A DNA stretch of 37,888 nt from Bifidobacterium breve (GCA_945878785.1 CAMDVC010000002.1:1-37888); one strand, 5' to 3'; counted from the first letter of the stretch, positions 8,130 to 18,507 are shown. Notes: generated by a model from the letters alone, not told the origin. Translations and numbers: made by a program.

Positions 8130-9389
8130 ATGTCCATCGTTGTCCTCGGAATTAACTACCACACGAGTCCGGTCACATTGCTTGAAAAGGTAATGATTCC
8201 ACTTCCTGCAATGTCTGAAGCATTGCGGGTTCTTTCGAGCCATAGTGATATTCGTGAAGTTATAGTTTTGTCTACTTGCAACCGCACAGAGGTGTATGCA
8301 ATAGCCGAGAGATACCATGCCGCTCACACAGACATTCTTGAATTCTTATGTGAGACGAGTGGCCTGAGTGCAGACGAGATCACACCTCATTTGTATAGCC
8401 AATTCGATGATGACGCCGTTGTGCATCTCTTTGAAGTTGCAGCTGGAATAGATTCAGCAGTTCTCGGCGAAACTGAAATCGTTGGTCAAGTGCGTGAAGC
8501 ATGGGATTTTGCAATGAAGCAAGGTACATCGCGTAGCACATTGAATTTGTTGTTCCGTTACGCACTTGAATCCGGAAAGCGTGCCAGAACAGAAACTGGA
8601 ATTAGTCGTTCTACTGCGTCTGTTGCACATGCTGCCGTAGAAATGGCAGAAGAAATTCTCGGAACACTCAGTGGCAAACGGGTTCTTGTTGTTGGCGCTG
8701 GTGAAATGGGAGAAGGAGTCGCAGGTGCGTTGTCTCGTGCTGGTACCGAAAGCATTACTGTTCTCAACCGCACCGTTTCTCGGGCAGAAGCACTCGCAGA
8801 CAAGATTGGTGCTCGCGTTTCTGACTTTGAAAGTCTCGAAAATGAACTATCCACAGCAGATGTTGTGTTGGCGTGCACAGGTGCAGGTGGAGTCATCATT
8901 GATCACGAGTTATTGGCTCGTGTTCGACAGGGCGTTTCAACACCGTTACTTGTGGTTGATATCGCGTTACCGCGTGACGTTGCTGCGAGCGTTGCAGAGT
9001 TGCCTGGCGTGACATTGCGAGACCTCGATAATCTCAGTGACTGGGCGCAGCGGGGTATTGATAAGCGTTCATCTGAAGTGGGCCAGGTTCGCGAAATTAT
9101 TGGTGAAGAAGTGAAACGCTTCCTGCTTGATCAAACACAACGACAGGCAGCGCCGCTAGTCGCCCAATTACGTGAAGTAGTCGAATCAATTCGCACGGCC
9201 GAGATGGATCGGTTTGAGACAGCGTTGTCAGCGATGACCCCAGAACAGCGGGAACTTGTGGAATCCATCTCTCACGGCATCATCAACAAAATGCTTCATG
9301 TCCCCTCTGTGCGCCTTCGTGAGGCTGCCGGAACTCCACAGGGAGAACGACTGTCAGCTGCGGTCCGAGATTTGTTTAGTCTCGACTAA
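8130..9389 (+). CDS. hemA: Glutamyl-tRNA reductase
   Basis: VVLGINYHTSPV..., VLSTCNRTEVYA, GETEIVGQVREAW, VVGAGEMGEGVAGALSRAG. Confidence 0.94.
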   Translation: MSIVVLGINYHTSPVTLLEKVMIPLPAMSEALRVLSSHSDIREVIVLSTCNRTEVYAIAERYHAAHTDILEFLCETSGLSADEITPHLYSQFDDDAVVHLFEVAAGIDSAVLGETEIVGQVREAWDFAMKQGTSRSTLNLLFRYALESGKRARTETGISRSTASVAHAAVEMAEEILGTLSGKRVLVVGAGEMGEGVAGALSRAGTESITVLNRTVSRAEALADKIGARVSDFESLENELSTADVVLACTGAGGVIIDHELLARVRQGVSTPLLVVDIALPRDVAASVAELPGVTLRDLDNLSDWAQRGIDKRSSEVGQVREIIGEEVKRFLLDQTQRQAAPLVAQLREVVESIRTAEMDRFETALSAMTPEQRELVESISHGIINKMLHVPSVRLREAAGTPQGERLSAAVRDLFSLD

Positions 9390-9397
9390 GAACATCT

Positions 9398-10282
9398 ATG
9401 ACAACTATTCGTATCGCCACACGCTCCAGCGCACAAGCACGCACTCAGGCAGAGGCGGTCGGCGCATTATTGATAGCCGCCAGCGACGGCGTTGCAGTTG
9501 AGTACGTGTTTGTTGATACGCACGGCGATCTCAACGCAACAACTCCGTTACATCTCATGGGTGGTCAAGGCGTCTTTGTGAAGGAAGTGCAGCGTGCAGT
9601 ACTTGAGAATCACGCAGATATTGCAGTGCACTCTGCAAAAGATCTTCCCTCGCAGAACGCAGACGGGCTCGTAATTGGTGCAATTGGCGAACGCCGAACA
9701 CCAAATGATGCCTTAGTCGGGAAACGATTAGAGGAACTTGCAGTTGGCGCCACCATTGCCACTGGGTCAGTTCGCCGCCGTGCGCAACTGATGCGCGTTC
9801 GTCCTGATCTGCAATTTGTTGACCTTCGCGGAAATATCCAAACTCGTTTATCGAAAATTCCTGACGGTGGCGCAATTGTCATGGCTGTTGCAGCGTTAGA
9901 AATTCTTGACATGACATTGCATATTGATGAGGTGCTTGATCTAGACGTGGCTGTTCCAATGGTGGGGCAAGGCAGTGTGGCAATCGAGGCGCGTACTGAT
10001 GACACTGAAACACGAGCGATCCTTACGCTTATTGATCACGCAGCAAGTCGTCGTGCAGTAGAGACAGAACGCGCCTTTCTTGCAGAACTTGGTGCTGGCT
10101 GTTCTTTGCCAGTGGGTGCACATCTGTCGAACGACGGAGTGTTTCGCGCGTTCATGGCAAATGATGATTTCAGTGACTCGGTACAGATTGTCGGTTCTAT
10201 TGGTGATTCTGACGACTTTCGTGTCGTCGGAATAACTGCAGCAATTGAGTGCCGTGCTCGACTCGCAAAGCCACTTAATTAA
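9398..10282 (+). CDS. hemC: Porphobilinogen deaminase (hydroxymethylbilane synthase)
   Basis: IRIATRSSAQARTQAEAV, GVFVKEVQRAVLENHADIAVHSAKDLPS, IATGSVRRRAQL, RAFLAELGAGCSLPVGAH (dipyrromethane Cys). Confidence 0.94.
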   Translation: MTTIRIATRSSAQARTQAEAVGALLIAASDGVAVEYVFVDTHGDLNATTPLHLMGGQGVFVKEVQRAVLENHADIAVHSAKDLPSQNADGLVIGAIGERRTPNDALVGKRLEELAVGATIATGSVRRRAQLMRVRPDLQFVDLRGNIQTRLSKIPDGGAIVMAVAALEILDMTLHIDEVLDLDVAVPMVGQGSVAIEARTDDTETRAILTLIDHAASRRAVETERAFLAELGAGCSLPVGAHLSNDGVFRAFMANDDFSDSVQIVGSIGDSDDFRVVGITAAIECRARLAKPLN

Positions 10283-10287
10283 CGTTC

Positions 10288-11028
10288 ATGGGTAGTCCAC
10301 TTGATAATCGTTCAGTGGTTATCACTCGATCCATTTCACAAAACGAATCGTTGCGTCGTTTATTGGAAGCTCGTGGTGCGCGAGTAGTTGAAGTTCCACT
10401 CATCGCTATTACCGAACCCGAAGATGAGGGACGTGAGCGAGATGAAGTTCTTCAGCATTTTGATCAATTCGATTGGATCGTTGTGACATCGCCTAATGGT
10501 GCAGATTGTATAGCCCCATTCCTTGTTGCTGCCCATGCTGCTGGTGATGCTGAACGTTTTCCATCACTTGCTGCTGTTGGTGAAGCAACGGCACGTTCGC
10601 TTGGTGTCACGGTGGCGATGACAGCTAATCCTGCGAGAGCTGATGTACTTGCCGAGCAGTTTCCAACCGGCACTGGATCAGTCTTGGTTGTGCAAGGAAA
10701 TTTGGCTGATGATTCGTTGAGTAGCTCGCTACGCGCAAAAGGGTGGGCAGTGACTCAAGTAGTCGCATATCGCACTGTGCAACTACGACCCACGCGCGAA
10801 ATAATGTTGCCAGCAATGGCCGCAGATGTGTTGCTGCTCGCATCAGGCAGTGCAGCGAACGCGTGGTTCGACGCATTCGGAACAACTACGCCACCGTTTG
10901 TGGTTGCGATGGGACCATCAACAGCCAAAGTCGCGTCTGCTCTTGGTATTGATGTATCGGCCGTAGCGCCCGAACAAACACTTGAATCAATGATTCAGAC
11001 CGCTGAAAGAGTGCTTGCCGACGTGTAA
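10288..11028 (+). CDS. hemD: Uroporphyrinogen-III synthase
   Basis: RSVVITRSISQNESLRRLLEARGARVVEVPLIAI...DWIVVTSPNGADC, located between hemC and hemB. Confidence 0.88.
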   Translation: MGSPLDNRSVVITRSISQNESLRRLLEARGARVVEVPLIAITEPEDEGRERDEVLQHFDQFDWIVVTSPNGADCIAPFLVAAHAAGDAERFPSLAAVGEATARSLGVTVAMTANPARADVLAEQFPTGTGSVLVVQGNLADDSLSSSLRAKGWAVTQVVAYRTVQLRPTREIMLPAMAADVLLLASGSAANAWFDAFGTTTPPFVVAMGPSTAKVASALGIDVSAVAPEQTLESMIQTAERVLADV

Positions 11029-11075
11029 CTGGTGGTGCCTGTCGATGCTGGCGCAATAGCCAATAGCATTACAGT

Positions 11076-12056
11076 GTGGCTTTCCCTGTTTCACGCCCCC
11101 GCCGGCTACGCACCACTCACGCCATGCGTGAATTGGTTGCTGAGACCCGCCTTCATGTCTCAGATCTTGTTGCGCCGTTGTTTGTTCGCGAAGGAATTTC
11201 TGCCCCGCAGCCGATTGGGTCGCTGCCAGGCGTCGTTCAGCACACTCGTGAATCTCTTGTCGCCGAAGTGGTTTCTTTGCGTGACCTTGGCGTGCGCGCC
11301 GTGATTTTGTTTGGAATCCCTGTCGTAAAAGACGCAGTGGGCTCAGGAGCGTATGACCCAGATGGCATTGTCCAGGTGGCACTTCGTGATCTGCGAGCTG
11401 CAGTGGGCGATGACATGGTCATCATGGCCGACCTGTGCGTTGATGAATACACGTCCCATGGGCACTGCGGAATTATTGGGGCCAACGGAGACGTCGACAA
11501 TGATGCGACGCTTGCGATCTATTGCAAAACCGCTCTTGCACAAGCAGGGGCCGGAGCGCACGTTGTAGCGCCGAGCGGCATGATGGACGGACAAGTGGGT
11601 GCTATTCGCGCCGCACTTGATGGTGCTGGGCATCAGAATGTGGCAATTATGGCCTATTCGGCAAAATATGCCTCGGCGCTGTACGGACCATTCCGTGATG
11701 CAGTTGATGTGCACATTGAAGGTGGAGGTCACCGCAAGGGGTACCAACAGGATTGGCGTAATACCCGGGAGTCGATGCGCGAGGTTTTTGAAGATCTTGA
11801 ACAAGGTGCTGACATTGTGATGATTAAGCCTGCGCTGTCCTATCTCGATGTCATAACTCATGTGCGCGAAGCAGTCGATGTGCCAGTCGCGGCGTATCAC
11901 GTGAGCGGCGAGTATTCCATGATTAAGGCTGCTGCTGAACGCGGATGGATTGATCATGATGCAGTTGCGCTCGAGCAACTAACAGCAATCAAGCGTGCTG
12001 GTGCTGACATTATTCTCACGTACCTCACGCGCTGGTTCGCTGAATATTCTTCATAA
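11076..12056 (+). CDS. hemB: Delta-aminolevulinic acid dehydratase (porphobilinogen synthase)
   Basis: GTG start. RPRRLRTTHAMRELVAETRL, ADLCVDEYTSHGHCGI, VAPSGMMDGQVGAIRAALD, MIKPALSYLDVI...VAAYHVSGEYSMIKAA. Confidence 0.94.
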   Translation: MAFPVSRPRRLRTTHAMRELVAETRLHVSDLVAPLFVREGISAPQPIGSLPGVVQHTRESLVAEVVSLRDLGVRAVILFGIPVVKDAVGSGAYDPDGIVQVALRDLRAAVGDDMVIMADLCVDEYTSHGHCGIIGANGDVDNDATLAIYCKTALAQAGAGAHVVAPSGMMDGQVGAIRAALDGAGHQNVAIMAYSAKYASALYGPFRDAVDVHIEGGGHRKGYQQDWRNTRESMREVFEDLEQGADIVMIKPALSYLDVITHVREAVDVPVAAYHVSGEYSMIKAAAERGWIDHDAVALEQLTAIKRAGADIILTYLTRWFAEYSS

Positions 12057-12067
12057 GGAAACACGCA

Positions 12068-13420
12068 ATGAACTCACCGATCCCTCTTTGTGATGCCAAC
12101 GCTTGCGTTGCTGCCGGCTGTACTGCAACTGTCTGTCGAGGCATTGGAATTGCATCGAACCAAGTTTTGTTTGATCGTTCTGCGCTAGTCATTCCTGGCG
12201 GAGTTAACTCGTCTATTCGTGCATTCAAAGCTGTTGGAGGTACTCCCTATGTTGTGTCTCGTGCTGACGGTGCATTTGTATATGACGTGGAAGGCAATGA
12301 ACTTATTGACTTGGTTCAAAGTTACGGTGCCATCATTCTTGGACACGCACATCCAAAAGTAACTGAAGCTATTCGTAGTGCAGCAGAAGATGGTACGTCG
12401 TATGGTGCACCCACTCCGCGTGAAATGAAATTGGCAGAAGCAATTTCAGAACGGGTTCTCTCCTGTGAGCGCGTTCGTTTCATGAATAGTGGAACAGAAG
12501 CAACAAGTACTGCAGTCCGTTTGGCACGCGGAGCAACTGGACGAAAGCGCATTGTTACATTCCATGGAAACTTTCATGGTGCTACTGATGCATTATTGGC
12601 CGCAGGTGGAAGTGGTTTAGCAACGCTTGGTCTGCCAGGTACTGCTGGTGTACCCAATGAAGCAGTTGCTAATACATGGGTACTGCCATACAACGTTGTA
12701 CCAACACTTGATAATGATGTCGCTGCAGTTTTTGTTGAACCCGTTGCTGCAAACATGGGGTTAGTTGCCCCTGCCCCAGGGTTTCTCGAAGGACTTCGTG
12801 CAGAGTGCGACCGAGTCGGTGCGCTACTTGTATTTGACGAAGTGATTACCGGGTTCCGTCTGGGTTCTGGTGGTGCTCAAGCTAAATACGATGTGCGACC
12901 AGATCTCACATGCTTTGGAAAAGTTATTGGTGGCGGATTACCAATTGGCGCAGTCGGTGGTCGACGCGACATCATGGAAAATCTCACACCACTTGGTGCG
13001 GTATTTCACGCAGGAACTCTTGCGGGAAACCCTCTTGCCACTGCGGCTGGTCTTGCAGCGCTCAATGAATTATCTGATGATGTATATATGGAATTGTCGG
13101 CACGAGCTCGTTTTACTGCGGCGATGTTGCGTGATGTATGTAGTGATGCAGGAATTCCTGCACAGTTTCCGGTTGTCGGAACTTTGATCGGAATGTATTT
13201 CGGAAACGAACTTGGCACGAAGACTCCAACGAATTTCGAAGAGGCACAAACGACAGATGAAGCGTTATACGCAAAAGTGTTTCATGCATTATTGAGCGGG
13301 GGCGTTGCGTTAGCACCCGGAGCATATGAGGCTGTATTCGTTGGTCTTTCTCACACCGATTCAGTTCTTGATCAGTTAGCAGTTCGTGTGTCCGCGGCGT
13401 TGAAAGGCCTCATGAATTGA
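12068..13420 (+). CDS. hemL: Glutamate-1-semialdehyde 2,1-aminomutase with a cysteine-rich N-terminal extension
   Basis: VIPGGVNSSIRAFKAVGGTP, RFMNSGTEATSTAVRLARGATGR, LVFDEVITGFRLGSGGAQ, CFGKVIGGGLPIGAVGGR. AAGGA lies upstream of the ATG at 12068. Confidence 0.93.
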   Translation: MNSPIPLCDANACVAAGCTATVCRGIGIASNQVLFDRSALVIPGGVNSSIRAFKAVGGTPYVVSRADGAFVYDVEGNELIDLVQSYGAIILGHAHPKVTEAIRSAAEDGTSYGAPTPREMKLAEAISERVLSCERVRFMNSGTEATSTAVRLARGATGRKRIVTFHGNFHGATDALLAAGGSGLATLGLPGTAGVPNEAVANTWVLPYNVVPTLDNDVAAVFVEPVAANMGLVAPAPGFLEGLRAECDRVGALLVFDEVITGFRLGSGGAQAKYDVRPDLTCFGKVIGGGLPIGAVGGRRDIMENLTPLGAVFHAGTLAGNPLATAAGLAALNELSDDVYMELSARARFTAAMLRDVCSDAGIPAQFPVVGTLIGMYFGNELGTKTPTNFEEAQTTDEALYAKVFHALLSGGVALAPGAYEAVFVGLSHTDSVLDQLAVRVSAALKGLMN

Positions 13421-14016: not shown

Positions 14017-14829
14017 TTATTTAGCGATTGAGGCGCGAGGTTCAGTGCCTACGGCGCCTGGTTTTTCAGCAAGCATCGCAAAATCTTTTTCAATGCTGTC
14101 GAACGATGATGTTCCAGTTTCTAATGCCTTAAAGATTTCAGATTCTGGTGAACACCATGTCTCATACTCAGACATCCACTCTTCACTTGCAGTGTCTGCC
14201 CCAGAGGTTGTGTATCGCACATGGCATACAACGGACAGAATTTCCGCTTCAGTAAGTGCTCCACCAGCTTTTTCGCCTTGCATCGGCATGGCGTTTCCGT
14301 TGTATGAAAGTGGGGCGTGTGCGCCACCTTCACGTTTTGGATTGCCGTACAACTTAAGGCCAGATGCCACGTACTTTTGACTACCGGTGTAAACGAAGTT
14401 CAACATGTCTTCGATGTGAGGGAATGTCTTCATGACTTCACCTTGATACAAAACGCGACCAGCTCCGCCAGCTCCGGCAGCTCCATGACAACCTGCACAC
14501 GAACCATAGGTAGCAGCTCCGATCGACATTGGGCCAGCAATTACTTTCTCTGCTGGCTTTAGAGCAATGAGGTACAACATTGCCCACGCAGGAAGTAGAG
14601 CCAAAGTGGTCATTGCCCAGAACGGAATCTTTTTGCGTGTCTTAGCGGCAACAACATACGCAGGGTCTGGTATCACAGCTTTCGGCGCCGGGGCTTCTTT
14701 TGCCTTTGCTGGTGCAGTTGACGCGGCAGGAGAAGCGACTGCTGGAGTGCTGTCGCTGGTGCTGTCGCCAGACGCCTCTGCACGACGGGCTTTGGAGCGA
14801 TTCAGAAGGTGCTCGGGAATCTCGGTCAC
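14017..14829 (-). CDS. Membrane-anchored monoheme cytochrome c with an IPEHLL-type N-terminal motif
   Basis: GTG start with GAGAGG upstream. TEIPEHLLNRSKARR, Ala/Pro-rich linker, TM FWAMTTLALLPAWAMLYLI, CAGCHG heme motif, downstream GNAMPMQG candidate Met ligand. Confidence 0.82.
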   Translation of the reverse strand: MTEIPEHLLNRSKARRAEASGDSTSDSTPAVASPAASTAPAKAKEAPAPKAVIPDPAYVVAAKTRKKIPFWAMTTLALLPAWAMLYLIALKPAEKVIAGPMSIGAATYGSCAGCHGAAGAGGAGRVLYQGEVMKTFPHIEDMLNFVYTGSQKYVASGLKLYGNPKREGGAHAPLSYNGNAMPMQGEKAGGALTEAEILSVVCHVRYTTSGADTASEEWMSEYETWCSPESEIFKALETGTSSFDSIEKDFAMLAEKPGAVGTEPRASIAK

Positions 14830-15160
14830 TGCGCTTACCTCTCGGGGAGACCTGTCAGGCCTCTAAGAAGGCGGGATGCCTTCAGACGCAATGCCTGACA
14901 TGACCACGATAGACAAACTTCCCCTTATGCGAGTAATCATTTGCCAAAAGTCGAGAAATTTGTTTGTCAGGCCAAATGGTGAGGGGGGTATGAAACATGC
15001 ACAATGGCACAACCATGGCACGAATTTGCCGGCGACAAATACGGGAATTGGTCACATTCAGAAAATGGAATTTCTGCCCTTGCGATGACTAGTCTTGAAA
15101 GTGCTTAGGCACCAGCCCGATGACACAACCGTCACTAGGACCGAAGAAGAAGAATCGTTC

Positions 15161-15637
15161 ATGATCTCGATTGACATACTTAGATGGCCAGGGATTAACC
15201 AGGCTTTTTTGTTCTCTTTTTTTCTCACAACTGCGATGGCTCTCATCGTCATTCCTCTCGGGAAGCGACGCCCTGTCGGTACCCAGTCAACGTGGGGTGA
15301 AGCAATGGTAGGTTCCGTTTACACATTCTTTGTGTTGTTTCTTGCGTTTGGTGTCGTACCTCACCAATTCCTTGACCATGCCGACAAAGATCTCGGTTGG
15401 CGTAAAGACAAACTGCTTCTTGGCCCTTTTGACATTTTGAAGCCCAAGGCTTTCGGCGGCAATTTCCCTATGACAATTAGCTACGAAGCAGTGCGAGACA
15501 TTCTGGCAGTCGTTCTTCACGGATACTTCATTGCTCTCATGGTGTTTATGTTTGTTTGGTGGCAAAAGCGCGGAGAACGTGGCGTAAAAGAACTTGAAGT
15601 GTCCACATACGGCCGACCATTGGTGAAAAGGGGCTAA
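15161..15637 (+). CDS. Integral membrane protein at the head of the cytochrome b/Rieske cluster
   Basis: MISIDILRWPGINQAFLFSFFLTTAMALIVIPLG...VVPHQFLDHADKDLGWRKDK...; about 3 TM segments. The ORF track starts at 15095; the true start is uncertain. Confidence 0.65.
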   Translation: MISIDILRWPGINQAFLFSFFLTTAMALIVIPLGKRRPVGTQSTWGEAMVGSVYTFFVLFLAFGVVPHQFLDHADKDLGWRKDKLLLGPFDILKPKAFGGNFPMTISYEAVRDILAVVLHGYFIALMVFMFVWWQKRGERGVKELEVSTYGRPLVKRG

Positions 15638-15642
15638 ACCGA

Positions 15643-16056
15643 ATGGCACGTACAGACGCAAACCCACCAATGCCGGAATGGTCAACTGAGTATCAACTCG
15701 TTGAGGTGGATGCTGATTACCTTGGAAAGGCAGTCAAGCCAAAGCAATTCATTCATATTGATCAAAGTGAATGCATCATGTGTGAAGGTTGTGTTGATAT
15801 TTGTCCGTGGAAGTGCATCCACATGGTGACGACAGATGCAATTGCGGAAGCGCAAGACACTGAAATGCCTGGGTCAGATCCTTCTGACAACGTTCTCTTC
15901 ATCATTGATGATGATGTGTGCACTCGTTGCGCACTCTGTGTCGACCGTTGCCCAACAGGAGTAATCATCCTGGGCAAAGTTGGCGCACCAGATCCAGATG
16001 GTGACAGTCATATCCGAACTAACAATCATGGCTACGGCTATGGAATGCGACTCTGA
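15643..16056 (+). CDS. 2[4Fe-4S] ferredoxin-like protein
   Basis: CIMCEGCVDICPWKC and CTRCALCVDRCPTG, each CxxCxxCxxxCP. Confidence 0.88.
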   Translation: MARTDANPPMPEWSTEYQLVEVDADYLGKAVKPKQFIHIDQSECIMCEGCVDICPWKCIHMVTTDAIAEAQDTEMPGSDPSDNVLFIIDDDVCTRCALCVDRCPTGVIILGKVGAPDPDGDSHIRTNNHGYGYGMRL

Positions 16057-16067
16057 GGTAAAGGCCC

Positions 16068-16850
16068 ATGGCAAAAGTTCTTGATAATCCACGTCCCACT
16101 CTCAAAGAGCGGGCGGCCCAATTAGGCAATCAAATGCAGGGAAGTCAGGCATGGAATGCAATTTTCCGTCCTGGTTCAATCTTCCGTAAGGGCTACACAG
16201 ACAGCCCGCGTAACCGTTCGTACGTCATCATGAACTCGGTGCTCTACCACTTGCACCCAGTCAAGGTAAAGCGTCATGCAGTCAAAGTCAGTTACACACT
16301 GTGCCTTGGTGGTCTCAGCTTCTTCTTGTTTATTTTGCTCACTGTTACAGGTATTTTCTTGATGTTCTTCTACCGCCCTACAGGTGCTGCAGCGTGGCAA
16401 GACATTCAAACATTGCAGACATCTGTCACGTTCGGATTACTTGTTCGAAACCTGCATCGATGGGGAGCCCACCTCATGGTGTTGTCAACATTCCTGCACA
16501 TGTCTCGCGTGTTTTATCACGGTGCATACAAAGCACCACGTGAATTCAACTGGGTCATTGGCATTGTGCTGTTGACACTCACATTGCTTCTCTCATTTAC
16601 TGGTTACTTGTTGCCGTGGGACCAATTAGCCCTGTGGGCTGTAACCGTTGGAACCAACATGATGGGCTACACGCCAGTATTCGGATCGCAAGTGCGATTC
16701 GTATTGCTCGGCGGCGTTGAAATTGGTTCTGAAACCTTGCTTCGTTGGTACGTACTGCACGTGCTTCTACTTCCATTCGTCATCGTTATCTTTATGGCTA
16801 TCCACTTCTGGCGTGTTCGTAAAGACGGCGGAATTTCCGGACCTTTGTAA
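16068..16850 (+). CDS. Cytochrome b6-type subunit (N-terminal half of split cytochrome b)
   Basis: YTLCLGGLSFFLFILLTVTGIFLMFFYRPT. Heme ligand pairs are H-x13-H (LHRWGAHLMVLSTFLH) and H-x14-H (HVLLLPFVIVIFMAIH). Confidence 0.88.
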   Translation: MAKVLDNPRPTLKERAAQLGNQMQGSQAWNAIFRPGSIFRKGYTDSPRNRSYVIMNSVLYHLHPVKVKRHAVKVSYTLCLGGLSFFLFILLTVTGIFLMFFYRPTGAAAWQDIQTLQTSVTFGLLVRNLHRWGAHLMVLSTFLHMSRVFYHGAYKAPREFNWVIGIVLLTLTLLLSFTGYLLPWDQLALWAVTVGTNMMGYTPVFGSQVRFVLLGGVEIGSETLLRWYVLHVLLLPFVIVIFMAIHFWRVRKDGGISGPL

Positions 16851-16865
16851 TCGAGAGGGCATCAA

Positions 16866-17594
16866 ATGACTGAAATACCTGAACACCTACTGAAGCGAGC
16901 ACAAGCAGCTCGCGACAAAGCGGCCGAAGATGCCACAACCCCAGCCGCGGCTGGTGGCGACTCACGTATCCCTGACCATTTGCTCGAACGCAGCAAGGCT
17001 GCTCGTGGTGATGGAGGCGCGGTAGCGGTTGCAGAAAAGGCATCAGCAGTTGTTACTGCAGTACCGTCAGCCGGATTGCCTGTTGGCGCTGGTCCTGGCG
17101 GACATACTCAACGTTTATTGACCGTTGTTAAGTCCGGTTCTATTCAAGAAACAAAGGCAGCACCAGTTGACAAAGTTCATACCTGGCCTCACTTGTTGGC
17201 TGTTGAATTTGTTGCAGGTCTTGCATGTACAGCGTTCTTGTTTCTTTTCTCATGGTTTGTCAATGCACCATTGATGCATGCAGCTGACTTCAACAAAACC
17301 CCTAACCCTTCAAAGGCTCCGTGGTATTTCCTTGGGTTACAGGAACTTCTCACCATGTTCCACCCGTTGGTTGCTGGAGTGACGTTGCCTGGAATGGGAC
17401 TTATTATCCTTGTCTTGGCTCCTTTTGTTGACAAAAATGCTTCGAACAAACCTGAAGATCGGAAATGGATGACATCAATGTTCACCTTGTTCCTGATGTT
17501 CTGGGCAGTGCTCGTCATCATTGGTTCTTTCTTCCGCGGTCCTGGATTCAACTTCACTTTCCCATGGCGTGACGGAATTTTCTTTGAATTGTGA
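16866..17594 (+). CDS. Cytochrome b subunit IV-like (C-terminal half of split cytochrome b) with a duplicated IPEHLL motif
   Basis: TEIPEHLLKRAQAAR and RIPDHLLERSKAAR at the N-terminus, then VHTWPHLLAVEF...NPSKAPWYFLGLQELLTMFHPLVAGVTLPGMGLIIL. Confidence 0.82.
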   Translation: MTEIPEHLLKRAQAARDKAAEDATTPAAAGGDSRIPDHLLERSKAARGDGGAVAVAEKASAVVTAVPSAGLPVGAGPGGHTQRLLTVVKSGSIQETKAAPVDKVHTWPHLLAVEFVAGLACTAFLFLFSWFVNAPLMHAADFNKTPNPSKAPWYFLGLQELLTMFHPLVAGVTLPGMGLIILVLAPFVDKNASNKPEDRKWMTSMFTLFLMFWAVLVIIGSFFRGPGFNFTFPWRDGIFFEL

Positions 17595-17658: not shown

Positions 17659-18507
17659 ATGAGCACCGGAATTGTCATCGCAATTGTTGTCATTGCGGCC
17701 ATCGTTTTTGGCCTGATTGTTGTCCTCACAACTTCGCGCACTTCTGAAGTTCGCGGTGCGGGGGCATTGTCGCGTGAGACTCGTTCACGCAACACAAAGA
17801 CAAACATCGCAGACTCCGCTCCAAGTGGGCGTGATGTTGAAGCTCAAGCAGTTGTTCGTTCTACATCCGTAGTCAAGGCAGCGCCTGTTGAATTGGCCCC
17901 GTGGGTAGCACCTGACGAAGAAGCACTTGGCGTCTCACGTCGCATGTTTTTCAATCGTGCAACAGTTACCTTGCTCACAGTGAGTGTCGGAGCATTCGGT
18001 GCTTCTGTAGTTGGCTTTCTCTGGAAGGGCGCTGAAGGTGGTTTCGGTTCCAAAATCAATGCTGGAAAAGTTGACGACGTTATTCAATTGATTCGTCAGA
18101 ATAAAGGCTTCTTGTATCTGTCCGAAGCACGTGCGTGGGTGACCGAGTATCCAAAAGATGCACTCGGCAAGGGTCAGGCTGTTTATGCCGGCCAAGCTCC
18201 TGTGTATTCTGGAATGCAGGCAGGCATTGTTGCGTTGTATCAAAAGTGCCCTCATCTTGGATGTCGAGTTCCTGAATGCAAGAGTTCGCAATGGTTTGAA
18301 TGCCCATGCCACGGTTCTCAGTACAACCGTGTCGGTGAGAAAAAGGGTGGACCAGCACCACGCGGTATGGATCGTTTCGGAGTATCTATTGCGAACGGTC
18401 TTCTCACTATTGATACTGGCGCAGTTTTTGCAGGCCCATCAATTGGTGTTAACACCACTGGTCAAGAAGCCGAAGGACCACACTGCGTCGGCGGAGGAGA
18501 GCACTAA
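17659..18507 (+). CDS. Rieske [2Fe-2S] iron-sulfur subunit
   Basis: CPHLGCRVP...FECPCHGSQYN (CxH...CxxH). SRRMFFNRA before a TM is consistent with Tat export of a Rieske protein. Confidence 0.9.
   Translation: MSTGIVIAIVVIAAIVFGLIVVLTTSRTSEVRGAGALSRETRSRNTKTNIADSAPSGRDVEAQAVVRSTSVVKAAPVELAPWVAPDEEALGVSRRMFFNRATVTLLTVSVGAFGASVVGFLWKGAEGGFGSKINAGKVDDVIQLIRQNKGFLYLSEARAWVTEYPKDALGKGQAVYAGQAPVYSGMQAGIVALYQKCPHLGCRVPECKSSQWFECPCHGSQYNRVGEKKGGPAPRGMDRFGVSIANGLLTIDTGAVFAGPSIGVNTTGQEAEGPHCVGGGEH

Follow-up and report, generated by a model that had tools for sequence, protein, structure and literature searches.

The window analysed here, a stretch of 37,888 nucleotides deposited as Bifidobacterium breve (GCA_945878785.1, CAMDVC010000002.1:1-37888), encodes two otherwise unrelated respiratory membrane proteins, a monoheme cytochrome c and a PetD-like subunit IV of cytochrome b, which share a short N-terminal sequence tag. 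The evidence leans towards this tag being the short form of a lineage-specific cytoplasmic docking module that would couple the bc complex to a cytochrome c or terminal oxidase. This reading draws on the conservation of the tag, the identity and gene neighbourhoods of its carriers, the number of repeats, and a predicted helix followed by a disordered linker; any binding, the partner bound and a role in coupling are putative.

Three copies of the tag in the window

The first-pass annotation had reported three copies of the motif, and all three were found exactly where it had placed them. The cytochrome c opens with IPEHLLNRSKARR (14820-14782, minus strand), and the PetD-like protein carries IPEHLLKRAQAAR (16875-16913, plus strand) and IPDHLLERSKAAR (16968-17006, plus strand), both within residues 1-47. 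The tagged proteins and their parts are as follows.

14017..14829, minus strand: membrane-anchored monoheme cytochrome c; haem site CAGCH; Cytochrom_C match E=0.0033, below the Pfam cut-off; AlphaFold predicted local distance difference test (pLDDT) 87
14782..14829, minus strand: tag of the cytochrome c, (M)TEIPEHLLNRSKARR; GTG start; AlphaFold helix 6-19; P5, L8 and R11 invariant in 42 orthologues
16866..17594, plus strand: cytochrome b subunit IV (PetD-like) with two tag copies; Cytochrom_B_C (PF00032) E=2.2e-9, 37.9 bits, above the cut-off; alignments A1 and A5
16866..16913, plus strand: PetD tag copy 1, MTEIPEHLLKRAQAAR; helix 6-23 in the AlphaFold model
16968..17006, plus strand: PetD tag copy 2, IPDHLLERSKAAR; helix 37-47 in the model; I/P/L/L/R conserved at 95-98% (alignment A5)
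17007..17090, plus strand: PetD linker, hypervariable and of low complexity; pLDDT <50 at residues 49-88
17091..17195, plus strand: second conserved cytosolic PetD segment, GPGGHTQRLLTVVKSGSIQETKAAPVDKVHTWPHL; block of invariant columns G76-L110, directly before the membrane domain

The annotation had also proposed that the similarity is kept at the protein level. This was borne out: six of the eight codons for TEIPEHLL differ synonymously between the two proteins (ACC/ACT, GAG/GAA, ATT/ATA, CCC/CCT, GAG/GAA, CTT/CTA), and the codons of the two tags mostly differ within one genome with the core residues conserved.

Conservation of the tag

In 80 named loci no intact PetD and no detected divergent cytochrome c lacked the tag, which lies within a few residues of the start; both proteins were tagged in 59 of all loci analysed. 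In most Acidimicrobiales PetD proteins a second copy follows about 30-50 residues downstream. Free variation between orthologues or a lack of enrichment at N-termini, which the annotation had named as grounds for giving up its idea, was not seen: the tag was N-terminal in every intact orthologue examined, and its P, L and R residues were invariant.

The alignment of 42 cytochromes, 31-90% identical to that of the window, contained only 14 invariant columns, four of them in the tag (M1, P5, L8 and R11). The others were R65, P69 and W71 next to the membrane, C111, C114, H115, G119 and G121 of the haem site, and M181 and P182, the M181 region probably providing the axial methionine. P5, L8 and R11 of the tag were thus as invariant as C111, C114, H115 and M181. 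Across 46 dereplicated loci, mean pairwise identity at six core positions was 91% in PetD and 89% in the cytochrome c, compared with 19% in both linkers and 78% in the PetD membrane body. The second PetD segment (17091-17195, GHTQRLLTVVKSGSIQ..KVHTWPHL), which lies between the tags and the membrane domain, is conserved even where the form of the tag changes.

Synonymous codons of the PetD and cytochrome tags of one genome were mostly unshared, including in pairs identical at 19 of 20 residues; the residues match and the codons differ, which indicates that selection acts on the protein. Recent copying was ruled out on the same grounds for the window and for the clade of loci L062, L063, L069, L070 and L077. 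In that clade both proteins carry MAGIPEHLLKRAQEAR[ED]KAA with differing codons, whereas cytochrome tags outside it read MTEIPEHLLKRSxxRR; both tags thus appear to have changed together, in a concerted change at the protein level. In each of the deep lineages G026 and G032 the PetD and cytochrome tags are near-identical (MVEIPEHLLKRSQAAR; MVEIPEHLL[KQ]RSREAMARAKA). On average, PetD/cytochrome tag similarity was 0.645 within genomes vs 0.623 for shuffled pairs (permutation p=0.0006, uncorrected for phylogeny). The concerted change and the within-genome likeness would fit a partner common to the two tags, and are not proof of one.

The start codons of the two carriers differ in loci L024-L204: 93 of 104 cytochrome c genes start with GTG or TTG, and 107 of 114 PetD genes with ATG, a contrast that hints at different translation rates.

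Pattern searches and taxonomic distribution

A degenerate DNA pattern for [IV]P[ED]HLLxR was searched with the reversed pattern as control. In the own genome assembly (1.33 Mb, 78% complete) it matched three times, always at the window sites, and the control did not match. Together with 20 relatives there were 44 matches vs two for the control, and 21 of 21 genomes were positive. Within the class Acidimicrobiia, 134 of 198 genomes were positive, with controls near zero in most rows; chance similarity was ruled out by these controls. The idea that the own genome (78% complete) holds many tagged proteins was rejected, as the other matches inspected (≤2 mismatches) lay mid-protein or in another reading frame. 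Many of the genomes covered by these searches are draft assemblies.

The full extent of the tag required a looser pattern, with variants such as IPEHLRKR (PetD copy 1), IPAHLLER (PetD copy 2) and VPDYLLQR (cytochrome c). The 64 class genomes lacking the strict pattern were of two main kinds. PetD was likewise absent from every sampled member of families f10 and f12, and in most of the other genomes the N-terminal element of PetD was longer (LPEHLLRRSAEAKAKATGRPVDEILAEMKGE is one example) and in some proteins present in several copies.

Outside the class, a stricter pattern matched 3 of about 338 actinobacterial genomes, always within unrelated reading frames, and a profile of the longer module gave four weak matches by score alone (E 0.001-0.006) among 199 genomes sampled from the phylum. 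Within the phylum, tag and module therefore appear restricted to Acidimicrobiia, the other actinobacterial classes holding no convincing copy. The named relatives of the PetD locus are nearly all metagenome-assembled genomes of Acidimicrobiia/Ilumatobacteraceae. Public assemblies titled Bifidobacterium breve, Ferrithrix thermotolerans or Phycisphaeraceae (L064, L069, L080, L109 and L112) hold the Acidimicrobiia locus and are probably mislabelled or contaminated. Motif strings gave no match in the literature, broader searches returning only general supercomplex papers.

A longer module and its carriers

In deeper-branching Acidimicrobiia the N-terminal element is a module of about 44 residues, MSELLxxxAxxLGxPExLVxRSAEARAxAxGxxVDEVLxxWAGG (alignment A3), always ahead of a low-complexity linker rich in Ala, Pro and Glu and then a membrane domain. 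It occurs in one to four copies: two in most Acidimicrobiales PetD proteins, three in some cytochromes and up to four in genome G050. A profile made from long modules only found both window proteins, and these were its sole matches in their own, 78% complete genome at E≤0.01 (4.2e-5 and 0.00225), which indicates that the short tag is the central helix of the long module. The shared sequence of the window thus appears as the remnant of a longer module, beyond what the first-pass annotation had seen. Profile A2 was built from long PetD elements and A3, which contains no short tags, was seeded with sequences found by A2, so the carriers found with A3 are not independent of A2.

The carriers are of four types: PetD, two kinds of cytochrome c (CcoP-like and CcoO-like) and a multi-pass membrane protein that lacks annotation. 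In 43 scanned loci the module was present on 36 PetD, 29 cytochrome c and 12 CcoO-like reading frames; seven further frames were unclassified and look like PetD or cytochrome ends cut by contig ends or runs of N. The CcoO-like carrier was recognised by FixO matches (PF02433, E=3.2e-10 and 5.7e-8, above the cut-off) together with a CHTQxVR-type haem site. The multi-pass carrier (L265, L266, L275 and similar; about 370-400 residues, no Pfam match) adjoins CtaG in at least three genomes, in two of which it follows COX3, COX4 and CtaG. All carriers of the long module are, on these assignments, respiratory or oxidase-linked.

CcoO-like sequences without a module are mostly long frames resembling CcoN-CcoO fusions, in which the N-terminus is that of CcoN, and where such frames occur the module is on the CcoP-like cytochrome only. 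Fusion-like frames of about 620-690 amino acids with CHTQxVR were seen at L323, L324, L326, L327, L341, L343, L346 and L349. The module had no Pfam match, isolated modules giving no hit to E3_binding (PF02817) at E≤10, and no relative among PDB sequences (best E=1.2).

Gene neighbourhoods and the bc operon

The window cytochrome c consists of the tag, a disordered linker (about residues 20-55), a membrane helix (70-89) and a cytochrome domain (100-250). It has a single CxxCH, whereas classical CcoP has two haems; a deep-lineage homologue has a weak FixP_N match (E=0.0013). The best PDB match in a fold search, to one chain of the CIII-CIV complex from R. capsulatus, was not significant (E=0.2). 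In the class the protein holds a CcoP/FixP-like position, and its orthologues sit in oxidase operons.

Genomes of about 1.1 Mb, which we label Actinomarina-like by their size and composition, contain CcoN-, CcoO- and CcoP-like genes transcribed in the direction leading away from the bc operon; CcoO, CcoP and the PetD of the bc operon carry the module, and the CcoN-like gene matches COX1 (E=1.3e-11). The CcoN-like/CtaC/CtaD/CtaE/CtaF/CtaG/CcoO-like cluster of G032, opposite the bc operon, ends with the gene for the tagged cytochrome (names from sequence). In the window lineage CtaD and a second COX1 lie elsewhere (contig 21), and the tagged cytochrome is beside the bc operon. These neighbourhoods suggest that tagging singles out complex III and its c-type cytochrome or oxidase partner throughout the class. 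In one Actinomarina-like genome (G037; L163/L164 and L282/L376) the bc/oxidase cluster occurs twice, with differing linker repeats, possibly through strain mixture or duplication.

Cytochrome b is split in the window, with the PetD-like protein as its subunit IV, and nuo genes lie downstream of the operon. The other genes of the bc operon are as follows.

15095..15637, plus strand: membrane protein, no family match
15643..16056, plus strand: ferredoxin-like protein, 4Fe-4S dicluster, with Fer4 family matches; candidate cytosolic partner
16068..16850, plus strand: cytochrome b6-like subunit, PF00033 E=1.5e-46
17659..18507, plus strand: Rieske iron-sulfur subunit, PF00355
18510..19574, plus strand: cytochrome c subunit with two CxxCH sites, PF00034, from sequence

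The membrane protein and the ferredoxin-like protein with its two 4Fe-4S sites, which head the operon (15095-16056), are conserved in distant Acidimicrobiia, and the composition of the bc complex is unusual. Immediately before the cytochrome region, at 8130-13420, the window holds hemA, hemC, hemD-like, hemB and hemL-like genes (names from sequence).

Predicted structure and topology

AlphaFold modelled the window cytochrome from 42 sequences at the pLDDT given above, with about 79 for the tag helix, <50 for linker residues 22-38 and >90 for the cytochrome domain, and with the membrane helix at 70-89. The PetD model (pLDDT 61, predicted template modelling score 0.28) was too poor for a fold search; it showed tag helices at 6-23 and 37-47 and a disordered linker.

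In the cytochrome, a K/R-rich segment next to the membrane precedes the membrane helix and CxxCH, an order that would place the N-terminus inside, and PetD-type N-termini lie in the cytoplasm. By topology the tags of both carriers should therefore be on the cytoplasmic side. The helical moment was 0.05 for the cytochrome c tag and 0.34 and 0.22 for the PetD copies, with negative mean hydrophobicity. Such weak amphipathicity argues against membrane binding, and an amphipathic membrane-targeting helix was rejected on these values.

A putative role in docking, and alternatives

The first-pass annotation had offered either a cytosolic tag acting through a shared partner or a localisation signal. 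A cytosolic tag on otherwise unrelated respiratory membrane proteins is upheld; general localisation is not, because the carriers are specifically proteins of the bc complex and terminal oxidases, which points to coupling of complexes III and IV. On its flexible Ala/Pro-rich tether, the docking element would comprise a single helix in the window and, in deeper lineages, about three helices spanning some 44 residues. It is found on the subunit-IV-like cytochrome b of complex III, on the membrane-anchored c-type cytochrome that would be its partner (CcoP-like, often also CcoO-like, of the terminal oxidase) and, in certain lineages, on the membrane protein whose gene adjoins those of the aa3-oxidase. 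The modules may bind each other or one common receptor, and the repeats fit multivalent binding; complexes III and IV and the electron-carrying cytochrome could thereby stay together as one assembly, or be helped to assemble.

The tag might instead dock a dedicated soluble electron-transfer or scaffold protein, such as the operon ferredoxin, and not the complexes to each other. The ferredoxin gene lies immediately upstream of those for cytochrome b6 and PetD both in the window and in Actinomarina-like loci, and its cytosolic product is rich in Asp and Glu as the tag is in Arg and Lys; it is the best putative candidate for a soluble partner. Since ferredoxin docking leaves the module on the cytochrome c, the CcoO-like and the CtaG-neighbour proteins unexplained, we consider this account unlikely. 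A signal for targeting or insertion of respiratory membrane proteins (to a membrane patch or a pole, or for hand-over to the signal recognition particle or YidC) would suit an N-terminal sequence that precedes the membrane domain and is common to otherwise unrelated membrane proteins. Only few oxidase and bc proteins have it, however, and the other matches inspected lay mid-protein or in another frame; it also recurs internally, has little amphipathicity and is conserved like catalytic residues, which makes such a signal quite improbable.

An N-terminal helix followed by a disordered low-complexity stretch, as in the AlphaFold models, is also the typical layout of a degron, and the tag could be a site of regulated turnover by FtsH, Clp or the proteasome that balances subunit levels. 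For a degron, however, the folded-looking three-helix long form, the multiple copies and the restriction to one class and to partner complexes would all be unusual, and we give this role very little weight. It is scarcely credible that the shared sequence is a passive relic left by gene conversion or by shuffling of N-terminal domains: the carrier genes do adjoin and are transcribed divergently, and the CcoO and CcoP modules are near-identical in two Actinomarina-like genomes, but a core that is invariant across the class while the linkers change, together with mostly unshared codons, largely refutes this idea.

Several observations also weigh against the docking of bc complex to cytochrome c or oxidase. 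No tagged homologue of the multi-pass protein was found in the family of the window, where the profile matched untagged membrane proteins beside oxidase genes. The set of carriers varies, CcoO-like proteins being untagged when fused to CcoN and in G032. As a linear peptide the tag by itself is short for tight binding, and the within-genome similarity is a small effect for which shared descent may be the cause.

More broadly, and as a tentative suggestion that we would not favour at present, the respiratory chain of Acidimicrobiia, including the abundant marine Actinomarina-like lineages, might be organised by a dedicated repeated cytoplasmic docking module, self-associating or scaffold-binding, that clusters complex III, the membrane-anchored cytochrome c and both oxidase types through an interchangeable peptide code. 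To our knowledge, no such clustering has been described for any respiratory chain. As it stands, an undescribed module marks respiratory membrane proteins as belonging together in a bacterial class that is large and ecologically abundant, and the tag is a concrete peptide with which a partner could be fished out. If the docking role is true, coupling of complexes III and IV could be built from portable cytosolic tags, and their joining in non-mycobacterial Actinobacteria would become directly testable.

Comparison with known systems

The peripheral subunit-binding domain of 2-oxo-acid dehydrogenases (PF02817), the docking domains of polyketide synthases and encapsulation peptides are docking modules on Ala/Pro-rich linkers. 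The module resembles them as a small helical element on a low-complexity tether that is repeated or common to several partners; it differs in having no Pfam or PDB sequence match and in being carried by respiratory membrane proteins.

The obligate III2IV2 supercomplex (QcrCAB-CtaCDEF) of Mycobacterium and Corynebacterium belongs to the same phylum, answers the same need for electron transfer from complex III to IV and is joined by protein extensions. The system described here differs in its split cytochrome b (b6 and subunit IV), in the ferredoxin-like and the further membrane protein of the operon, in a separate membrane-anchored monoheme cytochrome c, and in a shared repeated module not found in other actinobacterial classes. 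In the mycobacterial supercomplex, an extension of QcrB contacts complex IV (PMC8361435).

The bc1-cbb3 system of Rhodobacter is similar in placing a membrane-anchored cytochrome (cy) and CcoP at the interface of complexes III and IV (PMC7876108). In the cited parts of that work its native contacts are made by transmembrane helices (CcoH, cy) and no shared N-terminal module is described. The same parts report that complexes III and IV were joined and stabilised by fusing cytochrome c1 to the N-terminus of CcoP on the n side; this engineered link thus uses the same side of the membrane as the module described here.

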